Source: a virus. Taken from it: a DNA stretch of 64,000 nucleotides. The position numbers were made by a program, and so were the translations under genes. The notes beneath the pieces were generated by a model. The model was not told where the DNA came from. It saw only the letters and a list, made by a program, of their open reading frames with translations, and did no database searches. Position 1 is the first letter of the stretch; each line of letters begins with the position of its first letter. The stretch spans positions 1-64,000 of the IMG/VR virus record IMGVR_UViG_3300008451_000421, one strand, 5' to 3'. This document shows positions 52,681 to 64,000 of the stretch, piece by piece.

Positions 52681-53679
52681 TTACGCCGAACCCGCATCCA
52701 AGCGCGCGATCTTCGCCCGCAGCAGCGCGTCCCGGCGGACGTAGCGATTGATGATTCGCTCGACCTTGTCCTTCTCCCAGCCCAGGATCTCGGCGACCTC
52801 TTCGGCGCTGAATCCAGCCAGGTAGAACTTGGTCGCCGCGGTGCCGCGCGCGTCGTGGAAGTGCAGCGTCTTCTCCCCGGCCGCGATCCGCGCCTTGTTC
52901 CACGAGGATCCGAAGCCGCCCGCCCAGGGCCTGCCCTTGGTCGTGGTGAGCACGAAGACCGATCGCTTGGGGATCGTCGCCAACAGCGCCCGCAGCTCGC
53001 TGTAGAGCGGCACGACCACGCCCCGCTTCCCGCCGCTCTTGCCGGTCTTGATCTCGATCGCGAGGTCGCCGACGTGCCCCCATTGTAGCTTGAGCAGGTC
53101 GCCCTGCCGCATCCCGGTCAGCGCGGCCAGGCGCAGGGCCAGCATGACCTCGACCGGCGACGTGGCGGCGAACCGGCTCAGGTCTTCCTCGGTCCAGATG
53201 ATCTCGGATCGGTCGGCGCTGTAGAGGTTGGAGATCCCGAAGCACGGATTCGAGCCCAGCAGACCCTCCTCCACGGCGTAGGACAGCATCGCCGAGAGCA
53301 CCTGCTTGCCGTTGTCGGCCGCCCGGGGAGCGTGCGCCCACTTGCCGCGCCACCGCTTGATCACCTTGCGGACCTCGGGCCGGTCGAACGTCTTGATGGA
53401 CAGCTTGCCCAGGTCGTCACGGATGCGGTCGAGCCAGGGTGCCCAGTTCTTCCGGGTCGAGACGGCGAGGCCGCTGTAGGCCGGGCTGCCCTTGTAGGCG
53501 GTCACCAGTCCGTTGATGCGCGAGGACTCGTCCGACTTGGCGCTGGCGGCGACCAGGGCTTCGAGGAACTCACGGGAGCCGGGCTCGCCGGGCAGGCGCG
53601 GGCCGCCGCGCCATGCGTAATAGTAGGTCCGACCCTTAGCGCGAACCTTGTGGACGCCCTTCAGTGCGACGTCGGTCAT
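52681..53679 (-). CDS. int: Tyrosine-family integrase
   Basis: 332 aa from ATG 53679. N-terminal arm-binding part begins TDVALKGVHKVRAKGRTYYY; SAM-like core-binding domain about residues 60-150. Catalytic domain: TGMRQGDLLKLQW (Arg I), a Lys turn KTGKSGGKRG, HFHDARGTAATKF (His-x-x-Arg), LGWEKDKVERIINRY with Trp and the nucleophile Tyr. Catalyses integration at tRNA-Gly. The gene ends at the attP arm sites. A longer reading would overlap the small upstream gene further. Confidence 0.9.
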   Translation of the reverse strand: MTDVALKGVHKVRAKGRTYYYAWRGGPRLPGEPGSREFLEALVAASAKSDESSRINGLVTAYKGSPAYSGLAVSTRKNWAPWLDRIRDDLGKLSIKTFDRPEVRKVIKRWRGKWAHAPRAADNGKQVLSAMLSYAVEEGLLGSNPCFGISNLYSADRSEIIWTEEDLSRFAATSPVEVMLALRLAALTGMRQGDLLKLQWGHVGDLAIEIKTGKSGGKRGVVVPLYSELRALLATIPKRSVFVLTTTKGRPWAGGFGSSWNKARIAAGEKTLHFHDARGTAATKFYLAGFSAEEVAEILGWEKDKVERIINRYVRRDALLRAKIARLDAGSA

Positions 53680-53857
53680 CTTCAAGCCACCCGGCAATCT
53701 CGTCAGTTGCGGATGCCGGCGGGGCCTCTCCAGCGGCGTATAGCGAAATTCGGCCGGTCTTGCGGTCGATGTCAATCCGGCCGATTTCAAAGCCCGCGCT
53801 GGTCGCGCCGCTCACCGCCTTCTGGACATCTCGGTCGGTGAACTTCGGCGCGCTCAT
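53636..53857 (-). CDS. Small protein overlapping integrase start
   Basis: 73 aa; its 3' end overlaps the integrase start by 44 bases in another frame. Sequence DRDVQKAVSGATSAGFEIGR then IDRKTGRISLYAAG and a basic end. Similar small genes sit before integrases in alphaproteobacterial prophages, as far as I recall. It may couple integrase translation; function unknown. Confidence 0.65.
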   Translation of the reverse strand: MSAPKFTDRDVQKAVSGATSAGFEIGRIDIDRKTGRISLYAAGEAPPASATDEIAGWLEDDRRRTEGRPQGSR

Positions 53858-53933: not shown

Positions 53934-54443
53934 TTAACCCAGCATCCCCCGGATCTCCTCGTCGAGGGACCACTTGTCCCACAGGTTGTCGAACGGCACG
54001 CCTTTCTTTTCGGCGTAGGCCAGGCAGTTGCAGGTCCCGCCGAACGACCCGTCCCAGAGAGCGAGCATCCGGTCAGCGCGATCGACCATCCACCGGTTGC
54101 GCATCTCAAGGGCTCGGGCCGCATCGAACATATGCAGCGGGTTCCTCGGGTTGACGATTTCCACGGATTCGGCGGCCAAGATGAGCCGATTGAACCGGTC
54201 GCGAGAGGCTTGCGGCCACCGCCGGTCCTGTCCCTCAAACGCCACCGCCGCGATGAACGGGATGCCCAGGGCCACGCACGCCGAGGCGACGGCCTGGTCC
54301 CAACCGAGCGCCATGCCGCTGATCACCTTCTCGGGGCGATTGAGGCTCAGGTGCTCGACCGCGAGCGCGCCCAGGGCCCGGCGGGTCTTCTGGTCGTATC
54401 CGCCGAGCTTGTGGGGCCGGTGGCCGGTGGCGGCGACGATCAT
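53934..54443 (-). CDS. SLOG-family (YpsA/DUF1273-like) nucleotide-binding protein
   Basis: 169 aa. N-terminal ATGHRPHKLGGY is the SLOG GHR signature, followed by VISGMALGWDQAVASACVAL (Rossmann helix) and a C-terminal LWDGSFGGTCNCLAYAEKKG. SLOG proteins bind nucleotides or derivatives and occur in phages and in conflict systems. Its partner is not evident. Last gene of the leftward operon before integrase. Confidence 0.75.
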   Translation of the reverse strand: MIVAATGHRPHKLGGYDQKTRRALGALAVEHLSLNRPEKVISGMALGWDQAVASACVALGIPFIAAVAFEGQDRRWPQASRDRFNRLILAAESVEIVNPRNPLHMFDAARALEMRNRWMVDRADRMLALWDGSFGGTCNCLAYAEKKGVPFDNLWDKWSLDEEIRGMLG

Positions 54444-57681: not shown

Positions 57682-59190
57682 TTAATCGCCGTTGAGCACC
57701 CGGACGCGGACAGCCTGGGTGATCTGGTTCTGGGTGGCGTCCTTGGTGTTCATGACCCGGTAAACGGACTCGTCGACCGTGCCGCGGGCGAGGATGTGGT
57801 AGATGAACACGCGGTCGTTGGCCTGGCCCGGGCGCGCGAGGCGCTGGTTGAACTGCTGGTAAAGTTCGAGCGACCACGTCAGGCCGAACCAGACCTGGAT
57901 GTGCCCGCCGTGTTGCAAATTCAGGCCGTGCCCGATCGACGCGGGGTGCGCCAGCCCGAGTTGGATCTTACCGTCGTTCCAGTTCCTCACGAAGTTGGGG
58001 TCGTCGTCGAACACCACGGCCTTCGGGAAACGCTTCTTGATGCGCTCCAGGTCGAATTTGAAGCTGTAGGCAACGAGGATGTTCTGGCCGGCCGACTCCT
58101 CAATGATGCGTTCGAGCGCCTCGATCTTGGCGTCGTGAACGTGTACGACCTCGCGCTCGACCGGGTAGGTCCCCTCGATCGGCCGGTACATCGACCCGTT
58201 TGACATTTGTAAAAGCTTATTGGTCAGGACGCCCTTCGACACCGCCTCGACGTCGTAGACCTCGCTGACCAGGGTGCGCTCGAAGCGCTTGTATTCCTTC
58301 ATCTGGGCCGGCGTCAGGTCGACGTAGACCTTGCTCATTACCTTGGGCGGCAGCGCGATGTAGTCCTCGGCCCGCAGGCCGATCATCACGTCCTTCAGCA
58401 GGCCCATGATCTCGGCCTCAGCGTGGGGCTTGGGCTCCATGTTCCAGCCCATGTAGTCCTTGTCGAACCAGCGGTTCTCGAACGCCCGCATCGTCGCGCC
58501 CAGGCGGTGGCCGAAGTCGAGCACGTAGGCTTGACCCCACAGGTCGTGGATGCCGTTGGGCGCTGGCGTGCCGGTCAGCAGGACGATGCGCTTGACGAAC
58601 TTGCGGATCGAGCAGATCGCCCCGAACTCGGACAGTTTCGGCGGGCGTTTCTTGCCGGTCTTCGGGTCGGGCTTCTTGCTGCCGGCGCTGCGCTTTTTCC
58701 CAGCCTTGAACCGGCTGGACTCGTCCCAGACGACCATGTCGTAGGGCCACGCCTCGCCCCAGAACGCCACCAGCCAGGTGATCAGTTCGCGGTTGATGAT
58801 GTGGATCCGGCTGTCGTCACGGACCTTCGCCTCGCGCTTGGCCGGGTCGCCCAGCAGCACCGTGAAGTCAAGGTCCCGGGTGTGCTCCCATACCGCGATT
58901 TCGTCTGGCCAAGTAGAGCGGGCTACTTCAAGTGGAGCTACAATAAGAACCCGCTTGATCGTGCCGTTATCAAGCAATCGCCGGACAGCCGTAAGTGTAG
59001 ATGCGGACTTTCCTAATGACATTTCGACTGCCATAAGCACAGCAGGCAATTCTACTATCTTGTCGGCAATGTAGACTTGGTAAGGTCGCAACATGGACTC
59101 CGGCCGAACCTTGACGGTCGAGCCGAGAAGCTGCATCCGCAGGCTGGGCGGATGCAGTTCCAGTGCGATCCTGAGAAGGTCGTTAAGCAC
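57682..59190 (-). CDS. SNF2-type DNA helicase
   Basis: 502 aa from GTG 59190, overlapping the VRR-NUC stop. Helicase motifs: I is EMSLGKS (usually GxGKT; Lys61), Ia RVLIVAPLEVARSTWPDEIA, II VWDESSRFK (DEAH-like DESS), III LLTGTPAPN, VI FNQRLARPGQANDRVFIYH. The GLGKT to SLGKS change is in the Walker loop but keeps Gly-Lys-Ser. Superfamily 2 phage helicases of this group work with VRR-NUC nucleases and the polymerase in replication or recombination. Confidence 0.85.
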   Translation of the reverse strand: MLNDLLRIALELHPPSLRMQLLGSTVKVRPESMLRPYQVYIADKIVELPAVLMAVEMSLGKSASTLTAVRRLLDNGTIKRVLIVAPLEVARSTWPDEIAVWEHTRDLDFTVLLGDPAKREAKVRDDSRIHIINRELITWLVAFWGEAWPYDMVVWDESSRFKAGKKRSAGSKKPDPKTGKKRPPKLSEFGAICSIRKFVKRIVLLTGTPAPNGIHDLWGQAYVLDFGHRLGATMRAFENRWFDKDYMGWNMEPKPHAEAEIMGLLKDVMIGLRAEDYIALPPKVMSKVYVDLTPAQMKEYKRFERTLVSEVYDVEAVSKGVLTNKLLQMSNGSMYRPIEGTYPVEREVVHVHDAKIEALERIIEESAGQNILVAYSFKFDLERIKKRFPKAVVFDDDPNFVRNWNDGKIQLGLAHPASIGHGLNLQHGGHIQVWFGLTWSLELYQQFNQRLARPGQANDRVFIYHILARGTVDESVYRVMNTKDATQNQITQAVRVRVLNGD

Positions 59191-59479
59191 GAGCGGCGAT
59201 CTTGGCCTCGTATTCCGCCAGCAGCGCCACGAAGTCCTCGAAGTTGTCGATGACGTGGACCGTGAAGCCGGCAGCGGACAGTTCGCGGGCCCGGCGAACC
59301 TGGTGCCCGTCGAGATCCTTGCCGCGCTTCTTGAACTCGACGATCATCAGGACGCCGGCCTTGTAGAAGTGCCGGTCGGGGGCACCTTTCTTGCCGACGT
59401 ACATCATCTTCTCGGACAGCCACCCCTGGCGGCGGGCGAGATCTACGGAGGCTTCTTCGGTAACGATTTCACGGGACAC
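59183..59479 (-). CDS. VRR-NUC domain nuclease
   Basis: 98 aa from GTG 59479; the longer frame would begin inside the Mom-like gene and cross an operator. The VRR-NUC fold shows: KKGAPDRHFYKAG (PD), MIVEFKKRGKD (E-x-K) and the QVRRARELSAAGF helix ending HVIDNFEDF. These small phage nucleases cut branched DNA. Overlaps the helicase start. Confidence 0.8.
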   Translation of the reverse strand: MSREIVTEEASVDLARRQGWLSEKMMYVGKKGAPDRHFYKAGVLMIVEFKKRGKDLDGHQVRRARELSAAGFTVHVIDNFEDFVALLAEYEAKIAARA

Positions 59480-59487
59480 GTTGCAGT

Positions 59488-59502
59488 TCACCTTTCTGTT
59501 GA
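59488..59502. promoter_or_regulatory. Stoperator-like repeat TCACCTTTCTGTTGA
   Basis: Right arm exact, left arm TCACC. It exactly fills the 26-base gap between the Mom-like stop and the VRR-NUC start. Confidence 0.45.
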
Positions 59503-59504
59503 AG

Positions 59505-60187
59505 ATCAGTCCATGATCGCAGCGATCAGGAGCCAAGCCAGAGGATTCTGGTATCGGCCCGCATTTTGGATTTTCAGATGCGTGACGAACTTGTGTTTGC
59601 GGTATGCGCCCACCATCCGATAACCCAAAGCCTGCATCTCGGCGTTGGTCCGGGTCCTGGTCGCCTTCTTGGCCACCTGCCTACCATCGGCGTCTTCCCA
59701 ACGCGGCTGCGGCTTCATCTCGCCGATGTAGGTCCAGTTTGCCGCCCGGTATATCGCCCCGGTGTGCTGCATGAACTCATCGGCGTAAGTGACGAGGGTG
59801 ACGAACCGAGCGTCTGCGCGGATCAGCCTCATTCCTCGGGACATCAGAAACGATGCCGCGTTTGCCGGCACATCCGCGCGGACAGCAAGCCTGGTCAGCG
59901 ACAAGACCTTCCGCCAGTCGTCACTGTTCACCGACTGAGCGGCGACCTTGGTGGGCGGAAGCCACATGGCCACGCCAAGGAGATCCTCAGACCCTCTCAA
60001 AAACAGGCCATGCACGTAGACAGCGGTGTTTGAGCATCCACCGCTGTAGTGATGATCCGACACGAACTTGCGAGCTTGCTGAAAGGCTTCGCCACGACTC
60101 GGCAGCAACCGAACCTCGTAATCTGCCGCCCTAAGTTTCTGCCTCTCTTGCGGCATATCAGTCCATCACCGCAGCGACCAGCAGCCA
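59505..60187. repeat. 31-bp imperfect direct repeats flanking the Mom-like gene
   Basis: Bases 59505-59535 and 60157-60187 match at 27 of 31 positions (both begin ATCAGTCCAT). Each encodes the same protein end, WLLxAAxMD, for the Mom-like protein and the polymerase respectively. It looks like the scar of insertion of the Mom-like gene behind the polymerase by recombination between short homologous ends. Confidence 0.75.
59506..60156 (-). CDS. Mom-like (GNAT-fold) DNA modification protein
   Basis: 216 aa. Core: HHYSGGCSNTAVYVHGLF near residue 34, GVAMWLPPTKVAAQ, LSLTRLAVRADVPANAASFL and LVTYADEFMQHTGAIYRAAN. This is the pattern of Mu Mom and related phage acyltransferase-like enzymes that modify adenine to resist restriction. 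The gene starts directly after the polymerase stop (TGATATG) and ends with the polymerase-like tail. The substrate and the modification are not known from sequence. Confidence 0.75.
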   Translation of the reverse strand: MPQERQKLRAADYEVRLLPSRGEAFQQARKFVSDHHYSGGCSNTAVYVHGLFLRGSEDLLGVAMWLPPTKVAAQSVNSDDWRKVLSLTRLAVRADVPANAASFLMSRGMRLIRADARFVTLVTYADEFMQHTGAIYRAANWTYIGEMKPQPRWEDADGRQVAKKATRTRTNAEMQALGYRMVGAYRKHKFVTHLKIQNAGRYQNPLAWLLIAAIMD

Positions 60188-62047
60188 CTTGAGCGCCTGC
60201 TTGCGGCCGCGCACGGTCACTTTCGGAGGCGGCGGCGGACGATCGGCCGCGCCCAGGTCCATCAGGATCTCCTGGGCCTCGGCGATGTAGCGGTCGTAGT
60301 CAAGATCGTCCGGCAGGGCGTCAGGGAGGTCCATCAGCGGCCGGCAGCCGTTGGTCTTGGCCACGGTCTTCCAGTTGCCCGTTCGCGGGTCGAGCTTCTT
60401 GGTGCGGATCAGGCCGTCAGACCCCTCGGCGAGATACCAGCGGACGACCTTGCCCAGGTAGTGGCTCTCGCCGCCGCTCTCGAAGTAGGAGCCACCCTGC
60501 ACGGTGCGGGCGCTCACGAACTGGCGGATGTCGTTGCAGCCGAAGATCGTCCGCTCCAGCGGCACGTCCTTGGTGAGGTATTCCAATACCGCTTTGACGC
60601 AGATCTCGTTGGCCGGGTTCTTCTGCGGCCCGGTGTCGGCGTAGGCCCCCTTTGTCTTGATGCCGCCGTCCGTCTTGATCGCGATGTAGTTGTTCACGTC
60701 GCGCGAGAACAGGCGGTCGTATCGGGTCTCCTCGGTCTTCAGCTTGGTGTCGACCTCCCACTGGGCGATGATCGCGTTCCAGGTGTCGAGTTGCTCGGGC
60801 CGGATCTTGACGACGATGCCGTCCGTGTTGGCGCTGATGACGTTGATGCCGGCCAGGTAGGCGCTCTCGATCAGGCGCAGCAGCGCGAGCTGCCCGGTCA
60901 CCGTGACCTGGATCATCACCTTGGGGTCGTAGAGGAAGGAATACTTGCTGCCGGTCATGCCGAAGGTTGAGTTCACGACGATCTTCAGGCTGTCGGCGAC
61001 GACCTTGTTGCCGGTGTGCTTGGCGTGCAGACGAGTCTTGAGGATGCCGCCGAACGCCGTCAGGAACGACTTGCCCAGGTGCCTCGGCGCGAGTTCGAGC
61101 GTCAGCATCAGGTTCGGGTAGTAGCTCTCCACGTCCCGGTCGATCAGCAGCGTCTCGTCGTCCGAGTAGTGCGCCACGCCGCTCTCTTGCGAGTGCAGGC
61201 CGCCAATCCCCATCCGATAGACGCTGCCGCCGATCATCACGTCCCGGCCTTCCAGGGCCTTCGGCAGCAGCGTCTTGCCGCTGGCGAGCACCTCGAACTC
61301 GGCGTCGCAGACGGCCTTCAGCACCGACTGCATCTCGGGCGTCTTGAAGGTCAGGTAGGCCGGCGGGTCGTAGCGGAACTTGGTGCCCGGTCGGATGATC
61401 GGCTTCTCGGGATCCTTGCCGTCGATCTTGTTGATCTGGTGCTTCAGGACGGCCGCGGCCACCTGAGCGTCCTTCTTGGAGCGCAGGTCGATGCCGGCCT
61501 GGTCGCGCATCCGCTCGCGCAACTCGATCTGCTTCAGCAGGGCCTGATACAGCAGCCAGGTCGTGCGGAGGTCGTTGATGTTGTAGGCGACGACCTCCTC
61601 GATCTGCTCGGGCGTCAGAACGGCGTCAGGTTCGTAGGGGAGATCCTGCAGCTTCGGAGCGTGCAGCCGGCCGCCGTAGAGCTTGAGGCTGACCATGCCC
61701 GGCGCGACTTCGATGATGTCGATGTGATCGAGGCGCGGGATCCGCAGCTTGTATTCGCGCTCGAAGATCCACGGCTTCACCTGCTCGGTGATGATGTAGT
61801 CCGAGGCGCGCTTGAGCTTGGCGTTGTCCGCGCCCGAGATCGCCAGGAAGATCATCGGCACGTCGTAGTTGATGCCGTTGAAGCTGATCAGCCGGTTGCG
61901 CGTCATCAGCCGGCGCAGGCGCTCGACGTCGAGAGGTGGCCCGCCCGGCGTCAGCCTGAACGTCGCGATCTGGCCCGACTCGGGATCCCAGAACGTGACG
62001 CACCAAAGCCCAGAGTAGCATTCGACGTCGTAGACTAGGGTCCGCAT
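60158..62047 (-). CDS. Family B DNA polymerase
   Basis: 629 aa, small for a B polymerase. 3'-5' exonuclease motifs: DVE at 7-9, SFNGINYD at 55-62, YNINDLRTT at 155-163. Polymerase motifs: A IDRDVESYYPNLM near 300, B KIVVNSTFGMTGSKY near 355, C SANTDGIVV near 407 (DTDG with D to N at the first position: NTDG). It replicates phage DNA. The terminal protein-binding inserts of phi29-type enzymes are not obvious. The C-terminus WLLVAAVMD is duplicated in the next gene. Confidence 0.85.
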   Translation of the reverse strand: MRTLVYDVECYSGLWCVTFWDPESGQIATFRLTPGGPPLDVERLRRLMTRNRLISFNGINYDVPMIFLAISGADNAKLKRASDYIITEQVKPWIFEREYKLRIPRLDHIDIIEVAPGMVSLKLYGGRLHAPKLQDLPYEPDAVLTPEQIEEVVAYNINDLRTTWLLYQALLKQIELRERMRDQAGIDLRSKKDAQVAAAVLKHQINKIDGKDPEKPIIRPGTKFRYDPPAYLTFKTPEMQSVLKAVCDAEFEVLASGKTLLPKALEGRDVMIGGSVYRMGIGGLHSQESGVAHYSDDETLLIDRDVESYYPNLMLTLELAPRHLGKSFLTAFGGILKTRLHAKHTGNKVVADSLKIVVNSTFGMTGSKYSFLYDPKVMIQVTVTGQLALLRLIESAYLAGINVISANTDGIVVKIRPEQLDTWNAIIAQWEVDTKLKTEETRYDRLFSRDVNNYIAIKTDGGIKTKGAYADTGPQKNPANEICVKAVLEYLTKDVPLERTIFGCNDIRQFVSARTVQGGSYFESGGESHYLGKVVRWYLAEGSDGLIRTKKLDPRTGNWKTVAKTNGCRPLMDLPDALPDDLDYDRYIAEAQEILMDLGAADRPPPPPKVTVRGRKQALKWLLVAAVMD

Positions 62048-62107: not shown

Positions 62108-62854
62108 CTACAGGCCCAGGTCGTCGTCATCGTCCGCCGTGGCGGCAGCAGCCGCGCCGGGCGAGACCATGTCGTCGTCACCATCGTCGTCCTGGTCGTC
62201 GTCGAGCAGGCTGTTCGCGTCGACCGGCTTGGCACCGAACGCCTGGCCGTGCTTCTTGAACTTCACGACCTCGAGCGAGCAGTTCACCCGGTGAGGGTTG
62301 CCGTGCTTAGTACCGTTATAAGGGTACACGCGCACGATAACGGTAACATACGCGCCAGAGTAGAGCAGCCCTTCCGAGCCGTTCAGGATCGGGAAGCGCG
62401 CCTTGCCGGTGACGGGGTCCTTGTCGGTCTTCTTCGGGCCCAGGAGTTGGACCGGATTCGGAACGATCAGCTTGCCGGTCGCCGGGTCGACGTCACCATC
62501 CTTCAGCCGGCGGCGAGCGCTGAGAACGATCTTGTTCTCGTAGCCCTCGTAGCGAGCGATCTTCTCGTTGGTGTCGGGATCGACGATCTCGCCAGGCCGC
62601 GCGCAGCGGTTTTCCGGCGGGATGATCGGCGGGTTGCTCGGCCACTCGTTGGCAATGGCCTGCTTCTGCGCCGCCTGGATCTGCTTGATGTATTCGACGT
62701 GGTCGGACCGCCCCTTGTCGAACAGCAGAGCCGCTTCGATGGTGTAGCTTTCGACCTCGCCGGTCTTCTTGTTCTTGTTCGCCTTGGGAACGAACAGGTT
62801 CGCGAAGGACAGTTGCACATCCTTGAACACAAGTTCGATGTCTTTACTCGCCAT
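62108..62854 (-). CDS. DUF2815-type single-stranded DNA-binding protein with acidic tail
   Basis: 248 aa. DUF2815 features: ELVFKDVQLSFANLFVPKAN start, ALLFDKGRSDHVEYIKQIQA, GLLYSGAYVTVIVRVYPYN and RVNCSLEVVKFKKHGQAFG. Such proteins are OB-fold ssDNA-binding proteins linked to phage replication. The C-terminal 40 residues are Asp/Ala-rich and end DDDDDLGL, comparable in principle to the SSB acidic tip that recruits partners. Between polymerase and DUF2800 nuclease. Confidence 0.8.
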   Translation of the reverse strand: MASKDIELVFKDVQLSFANLFVPKANKNKKTGEVESYTIEAALLFDKGRSDHVEYIKQIQAAQKQAIANEWPSNPPIIPPENRCARPGEIVDPDTNEKIARYEGYENKIVLSARRRLKDGDVDPATGKLIVPNPVQLLGPKKTDKDPVTGKARFPILNGSEGLLYSGAYVTVIVRVYPYNGTKHGNPHRVNCSLEVVKFKKHGQAFGAKPVDANSLLDDDQDDDGDDDMVSPGAAAAATADDDDDLGL

Positions 62855-62866
62855 ATTCAGATCTTT

Positions 62867-64000
62867 CTATGCCAAAAGGTCAAAGTCATCAGTGTCGTCA
62901 TCTTCATCGTCTGACAGCTTGTCGTGGACATTCATCAGAGCTTCACGTTCGTCGCTTTCCGGGACGAGTACCGGTTTTCCGTCATCTTGGGTGATGAGGG
63001 ATGTCAGCCGCTCCCAGGCGTCGGGGTTTCCCGGTGTGCCTCGGCGCGGACGAAGGAGCTTCTCAGCTTGTGCGGGAGATTTCAACTTTTTATTGAACGC
63101 ATCATCCGACAAAGCGTCGACCAGATAGAACTCGGCCGGCGAGCCCAGCAGGTCGTCCTTAGGCTCGACCCATTTGCGGTCACCCTTCTGGCCCAGGACG
63201 GCCTTCAGGCCCGGCGTCGGGTTGCCGATCAGGGCGTCGGTGAGCGTGTCGGCGTGCAGCCGGGCCAGCCATTTCTCGAAGATCTTGGCGTGCTGGACGA
63301 TATAGCTGCGGCGCTCGGCGGATAGCTGATTCGTCGTCGGCAGCCGCGGCTCCTCGCCGAACGTGACGCCGTCGTCCACGTCGTCGAGCTTCTGTTCGAT
63401 GATGTCGAGCATCCAGGCGTCGTGCGTGGCGCAGCCGCTCAGGCTCCCGTCTTTCGGCGGCAGGTTCTTCACCCGGCACCAGCGGCAGCCCTTCTCGGAT
63501 GCGCAGAACTCGGCGTCGGGCTCATCCACCCGCTTGCCGGCCACCCGGACTTCCTCACCGAACGCCAGCAGCTCGTCGAGCGTCAGTTCCCACTCGGACC
63601 ACCCGCCCGCGCGAGGCTGGTCGATCGAGAGGATGAACCGTGTCGCGCTCGTCTCATGCCGCGCCACGTTGTCCCAGAAGCCCAAGGCGTAGATCATCAT
63701 CTGCCGGTTGCGCACCGGGCTGACCTTCTCACCCTGGCCGTACTTCAGGTCGTTGATGCGGATGACGTCGGGCGCGATGATGCCGCAGTCGAGCGTCCCG
63801 AACTGACCGGGCAACCAGCGGCCCAGATCCACGCGGTACTCGACGACCATACGGCCAGTCATCTCGCGCAGCTTGTCGATGCCGGGCGTCAGGTAGGCCG
63901 CGTCCTCCTCGGACCAGACGAACTCGAAGCCGTCCGCCCGGAGCGTCGAGCCGACGAAATCGTAGGGATCCTCGTCGTCCTCCAGGCACTTGGCCCGGAC
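62867..64000 (-). CDS. DUF2800 (RecB/Cas4-like) nuclease, 5' end beyond the window
   Basis: At least 378 codons; the frame is open to base 64000 and the N-terminus lies outside. DUF2800 signature: EYRVDLGRWLPGQFGTLDCG, then VIRINDLKYGQGEKVSP (D-x-K of the PD-(D/E)xK core), RNRQMMIYALGFWDN (Q-x3-Y). A Cys cluster (FCASEKGCRWCRVKNLPP) may bind an iron-sulphur or zinc centre as in Cas4/AddB. It ends DDDTDDFDLLA, the acidic tag family. Likely recombination/replication exonuclease. Confidence 0.8.
   Translation of the reverse strand, partial: VRAKCLEDDEDPYDFVGSTLRADGFEFVWSEEDAAYLTPGIDKLREMTGRMVVEYRVDLGRWLPGQFGTLDCGIIAPDVIRINDLKYGQGEKVSPVRNRQMMIYALGFWDNVARHETSATRFILSIDQPRAGGWSEWELTLDELLAFGEEVRVAGKRVDEPDAEFCASEKGCRWCRVKNLPPKDGSLSGCATHDAWMLDIIEQKLDDVDDGVTFGEEPRLPTTNQLSAERRSYIVQHAKIFEKWLARLHADTLTDALIGNPTPGLKAVLGQKGDRKWVEPKDDLLGSPAEFYLVDALSDDAFNKKLKSPAQAEKLLRPRRGTPGNPDAWERLTSLITQDDGKPVLVPESDEREALMNVHDKLSDDEDDDTDDFDLLA
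63082..63096. promoter_or_regulatory. Operator-like repeat TCAACTTTTTATTGA inside DUF2800 gene
   Basis: Left arm exact, right arm ATTGA. It is a short AT-rich patch in a GC-rich gene. Weak candidate; may be chance. Confidence 0.3.

Follow-up and report, generated by a model that had tools for sequence, protein, structure and literature searches.

A hydrophobic C-terminal peptide shared by a phage family-B polymerase and a neighbouring Mom-like protein: a candidate docking tag for DNA-modification enzymes

Introduction

Why should a viral DNA polymerase and the modification protein encoded immediately behind it end in nearly the same nine residues? The locus that raises this question lies in a viral record of 68,561 bases, within its first 64,000 nucleotides, which is the whole stretch of DNA analysed here and is hereafter called the window. 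The first-pass annotation had read the gene behind the polymerase as a Mom-like cassette whose arrival regenerated the polymerase 3′ end, and had asked whether the shared tail has a function; the latter was the right question to ask. Where the modifying enzyme works on finished DNA, little is known of how a phage has its own DNA modified in time to escape host restriction. If such a tag is indeed common to polymerase and modifiers, it would explain this timing directly; it would also represent a portable recruitment peptide, and replisome partners could be found from sequence alone, via proteins that end alike in one genome.

Results

A Mom homologue between the polymerase and endonuclease genes

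The gene lies in a minus-strand replication module with the order exonuclease (DUF2800), Enc34-type SSB, family-B polymerase, Mom-like open reading frame (ORF), endonuclease and SNF2 helicase (Table 1). The Casjensviridae modules of phages AH2 and AchV4 have the same order of exonuclease, SSB, family-B polymerase, endonuclease and helicase, with the endonuclease gene directly 3′ of the polymerase; unlike the window, they lack both a Mom gene at the polymerase–endonuclease junction and a polymerase tail of this kind. The insert between these two genes in the window consists of the Mom ORF only, with no recombinase, and an integrase is found ~6 kb from it. This integrase (52681–53790) adjoins a gene of the YspA family with a SLOG domain (53934–54443).

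By profile and by fold, the ORF between the repeats is a true Mom homologue, and its product is a putative enzyme. In a profile search it scored 99.1 bits against the Pfam Mom family (PF25680), for which the curated cut-off is 27.1, and its AF2 model (mean pLDDT 91) had as top Foldseek matches the Mu Mom structure 8bv8, a GNAT-like fold (E = 2.3e-11, TM 0.65). Residue S102 is nearly invariant among 20 homologues, and the profile Ser falls opposite the Ala of the mutated 8bv8 chain, the correspondence to Mu S124 numbering being derived from the alignment; the Mu Mom mutant S124A is inactive (chain 8bv8). The fold, the family profile (Pfam Mom and phrog_1384) and the S124-equivalent serine are as in Mu Mom, and the earlier naming of the gene as Mom-like is borne out by the Pfam match (E = 3.5e-28) and by phage Mu Mom as best structural match. 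The window protein differs from Mu Mom in having ~20 extra C-terminal residues, which end in the polymerase tail.

Table 1 Features of the polymerase–Mom locus and its replication module (window coordinates unless stated)
Feature	Position	Strand	Basis
SNF2-type helicase, same replication module	57682..59190	-	PF00176 E 1.2e-16, phrog_62
Endonuclease gene (VRR-NUC / resolvase type by homology), start codon uncertain	59183..59509	-	phrog_93 E 3.1e-15
Repeat copy 2	59505..59535	-	Codons for WLLIAAIMD + stop + one base
Mom-like DNA modification protein (putative), 216 aa	59506..60156	-	PF25680 E 3.5e-28, phrog_1384 E 1.4e-34; fold of Mu Mom 8bv8
Mom residues 205-215, predicted C-terminal helix with WLLIAAIM	59512..59544	-	AF2/DSSP H205-215
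Mom residues 194-204, linker after end of Mom fold	59545..59577	-	Homologue ends; pLDDT
Repeat copy 1	60157..60187	-	Codons for WLLVAAVMD + stop + one base
Family-B DNA polymerase, 629 aa	60158..62047	-	phrog_1252 E 1.7e-200; Foldseek matches family-B polymerases
Polymerase residues 615-628, predicted detached C-terminal helix with WLLVAAVM	60164..60205	-	AF2/DSSP H615-628
Polymerase residues 601-614, proline-rich low-confidence linker beyond family core	60206..60247	-	Homologue ends; AF2 pLDDT
Acidic-tailed replication-region proteins (exonuclease, SSB, 212-aa protein)	62108-62854, 62867-64000; record 64591-65229 (L045:6592-7230)		

The shared tail follows complete protein folds

The 31-bp direct repeats annotated at first pass, at 59505–59535 and 60157–60187, flank the Mom-like insert exactly. 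They are identical at 27 of 31 positions (87% in DNA) and unique in the window, where an IUPAC pattern covering both copies has these two sites only, with 0 expected by chance. Both repeats are in frame, each spanning the last nine codons and the stop, and they give the polymerase and the Mom-like ORF the common tail already recognized by the annotation (WLLVAAVMD and WLLIAAIMD, respectively); the four base differences translate into one synonymous codon and two V-to-I changes. Protein similarity is also present upstream of the repeat, where GRKQ-ALKW in the polymerase is matched by GRYQNPLAW in Mom with a one-codon gap. When ORF ends were compared across the 68.5-kb record (1184 stop-to-stop ORFs of >=30 codons), the polymerase and Mom tails scored 43 and the next best ORF end 16. 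The window pair, with its four base changes, does not by itself tell whether it is the peptide or the DNA that is conserved (P = 0.37).

In both proteins, the tail is an add-on after a complete protein fold. Of the 629 polymerase residues, those up to about 602 are covered by relatives from viral contigs and public phages, most of which end at or close to that point; most aligned Mom homologues end at KHxxxxxL, ~20 residues short of the window Mom end, and the Mom-like homologues in phages Samy and Min1 are without the tail. The AF2 models of both proteins consist of a confident core, a low-confidence linker and a short, low-confidence terminal helix, with pLDDT dropping from about 95 to 54–70 in the polymerase linker and to <50 at residues 200–203 of the Mom linker. 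This confidence profile suggests that the terminal helices would not be packed on the cores.

In a relative, the tail is conserved as peptide rather than DNA

The nearest relative (L002), whose polymerase is 66% identical to that of the window, has three successive tailed genes, one small ORF apart: the polymerase (RWLALSLAA), an N6/N4 methyltransferase (RWLALSLAA) and a Mom-like protein (RWLALALAA; phrog_1384, E = 8e-37). Homologues of the methyltransferase align only up to residue 415–418 of its 438. The polymerase and methyltransferase tails are only 2 of 27 bases apart, which makes recent DNA copying or conversion likely. Between the Mom-like and polymerase tails, by comparison, 12 of 27 bases and 8 of 9 codons are different but only 1 of 9 residues, whereas 12 random substitutions changed a mean of 6.4 residues and left no more than one residue changed in 0 of 200,000 trials (P < 5e-6). 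Judged from these sequences, the tail in L002 is conserved as a peptide rather than as DNA, and the peptide is under selection, or else arose independently, which would likewise need selection. The 12 bases that separate the Mom-like tail (L002:3849–3875) from the polymerase tail (1769–1795) are also more than the mean of 7.2 given by independent codon choice (P = 0.002); this excess perhaps reflects selection against keeping a direct repeat across which genes would be deleted.

Tails, empty sites and inserts in other relatives

The annotation had read Mom as a gene inserted behind the polymerase, and expected relatives lacking it to have a single repeat and an intact polymerase tail. That Mom is an addition ahead of the following replication gene is supported by a relative of this kind, G002, in which the polymerase (59% identical) has the tail KWSAPLFWALAV in a single copy and the endonuclease gene follows directly, with no insert. 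From this genome and from a decayed prophage polymerase that ends in HLLLAAVI, it follows that the polymerase tail exists without the insert. In relatives, the polymerase–endonuclease junction is an insertion hot spot, with different extra genes in L013, L023 and L029 (GIY-YIG-like and methyltransferase-like by eye). The polymerases of these three relatives are tailless, and the genes inserted behind them have not copied the polymerase end, contrary to what is expected if insertion simply duplicates that end.

A tailed Mom was also found in L072, a 9.2-kb contig with tape-measure and other structural genes homologous to those of the window phage (27–46% identity for the main matches). This Mom is 66% identical to the window Mom and lies among structural genes with no polymerase beside it, in a comparison that covers the 9.2-kb contig only, the polymerase of this phage falling outside the contig seen. 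Its tail, DNDNWLLFFAVAV (NWLLFFAVAV), has an ending that resembles the G002 polymerase tail SAPLFWALAV, and G002 and L072 come from the same metagenome. The more distant Moms of L073 (48%), L074 and L076 have no tail.

Scans of viral contigs with tail patterns yielded no additional polymerase/modifier pairs: a WLLxAAxMD-type pattern had no matches, and RWLALxLAA matched L002 and four others, those four not being the ends of credible genes. Searching ~1200 bacterial genomes with the polymerase returned few prophages, comprising the one decayed tailed polymerase and others that were tailless or had unrelated ends, and no close relative to take further came from searching 385 genomes of a single class and 196 of a single genus with Mom. 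Mom genes of Polaribacter and Corynebacterium phages have no such tail. In the unrelated Salmonella phage SP-031, Mom is directly upstream of the polymerase, in the same replication operon, with no shared tail. Tail sharing between a polymerase and a modifier was directly seen in two genomes only, and no report of a tail common to a phage polymerase and DNA-modification enzymes was found in the literature searched.

Discussion

A putative docking peptide for the replication fork

Our preferred reading, to which we assign a probability of roughly 0.58, treats the common C-terminus as a short docking peptide that takes the polymerase and DNA-modifying enzymes to the same replication-fork partner. 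The docking peptide would consist of a small, hydrophobic, aromatic-led helix attached through a flexible linker, and with it the polymerase and DNA-modifying enzymes of this phage group would bind one hub, either a processivity factor or another hub protein, encoded by the phage or its host. Newly made phage DNA would thereby receive Mom and, in relatives, a methyltransferase together with a second Mom-like enzyme; a shared tag is thus probably what docks the modifying enzymes of this virus onto its copying machinery. Tail sequences differ between phages and match within a phage, and, judged by homology, the tail carriers found other than polymerases are all DNA-modification enzymes. A canonical clamp motif was considered and the tails do not fit it: by inspection, the bacterial beta-clamp motif Q-x-x-L-x-F is absent from WLLVAAVMD, RWLALSLAA and LFWALAV, and the hub may therefore be a protein other than the host clamp. 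A non-exhaustive scan identified no sliding-clamp gene among the proteins scanned.

A comparable arrangement is known from phage T4, in which gp43, gp55 and gp33 have highly similar, freely interchangeable C-termini that bind the gp45 clamp, the gp55 linker being divergent (PMC2988020). There, as here, a short hydrophobic peptide forms the C-terminus both of the polymerase and of other proteins in the same phage; however, the other carriers in T4 are transcription factors rather than DNA-modification enzymes, and the T4 peptide is hydrophobic and acidic with gp45 as its partner, whereas the peptide described here is Trp/Leu/Ala-rich and its partner is putative. It is by analogy with this system that the tails would be binding elements, with the polymerase's partner as their target and replication-coupled modification as their purpose. 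In phage T7, gp2.5 and gp4 have similar acidic C-terminal tails, both used on the polymerase. Those tails are unlike the hydrophobic ones here in being acidic and in belonging to a DNA-binding protein and a helicase; T7-like acidic tails in this phage group are separate, on the SSB, the exonuclease and others.

Alternative explanations

One rival, which builds on the cassette read at first pass, is that the tail is a functionless by-product of DNA-level duplication, left when Mom recombined in as a cassette at the polymerase 3′ end and copied that end. It accommodates the exact flanking of the insert by repeats of 87% DNA identity, the two-base distance between the L002 polymerase and methyltransferase tails, the extra genes that relatives often have at the polymerase–endonuclease site and the empty site with one tail copy in G002. 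As the main explanation it nevertheless gives way to four observations and is in our view unlikely: in the third L002 copy 8 of 9 codons have changed and the peptide is kept, the tailed Mom of L072 has no polymerase beside it, inserts behind tailless polymerases (L013, L023 and L029) copy nothing, and there is no recombinase in the insert. Part of the first-pass idea is retained, in that the spread of the tail was probably helped by DNA copying between neighbours. Because carriers adjoin wherever both polymerase and modifier were seen, gene conversion would contribute, and DNA-level copying may be the route by which the tail first reached a new gene.

Slightly less likely again is a membrane or compartment tether that holds the polymerase and modifiers against the host membrane, or at some other phage structure, instead of on a replisome protein; the tails are hydrophobic, mostly Trp-led and sometimes preceded by basic residues, but about nine hydrophobic residues are too short for a membrane span, the helical moment is low and the window tails end in Met-Asp. 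Direct contact between tails, with Mom binding the polymerase (or each protein its own kind) by helix–helix pairing, is improbable for peptides that are very short and have no coiled-coil pattern by inspection, even if like tails on both partners would permit pairing and tails match within each genome. The most doubtful of the four is a degradation tag, whereby an exposed hydrophobic C-terminus marks replication-stage proteins for a host protease in the manner of the ssrA LAA end. L002 tails do end in LAA and that of G002 in LAV, but the VMD and IMD ends of the window do not fit an ssrA-type terminus, and early in infection a polymerase is not a protein one would expect to be degraded; an ssrA-like degron was rejected because an LAA-type end is not found in all carriers.

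Returning to the docking peptide, we tentatively entertain, at a little under even odds, a tag code in which modification enzymes of unrelated fold gain the docking helix of the polymerase or, in sister genomes, an acidic SSB-type tail. Such a code would physically couple base modification to replication, with the tag copied from the polymerase gene.

Acidic and other shared tails

Acidic tails form a second shared-tail class beside the hydrophobic one. The exonuclease ends in DDDTDDFDLLA, the SSB in DDDDDLGL and an unknown 212-aa protein in DEDEDDDLGL, and a plus-strand primase-helicase (record 65599–68067; L045:7600–10068) has the internal acidic motifs DDLLGEAD, DDLLGTPK and DDLLGDPK, which are like the acidic tails. 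DNA methyltransferases with acidic ends are encoded in G002 (L049:10855–11511, SNFDALFG) and in L072 (L072:1–507, ADDFDALL); both ends resemble the SSB and helicase tails of G002, and so modifiers may carry either tail class. In the Acidovorax phage ACF1 (L062), a different terminal peptide, DLF, is common to the exonuclease, SSB and polymerase.
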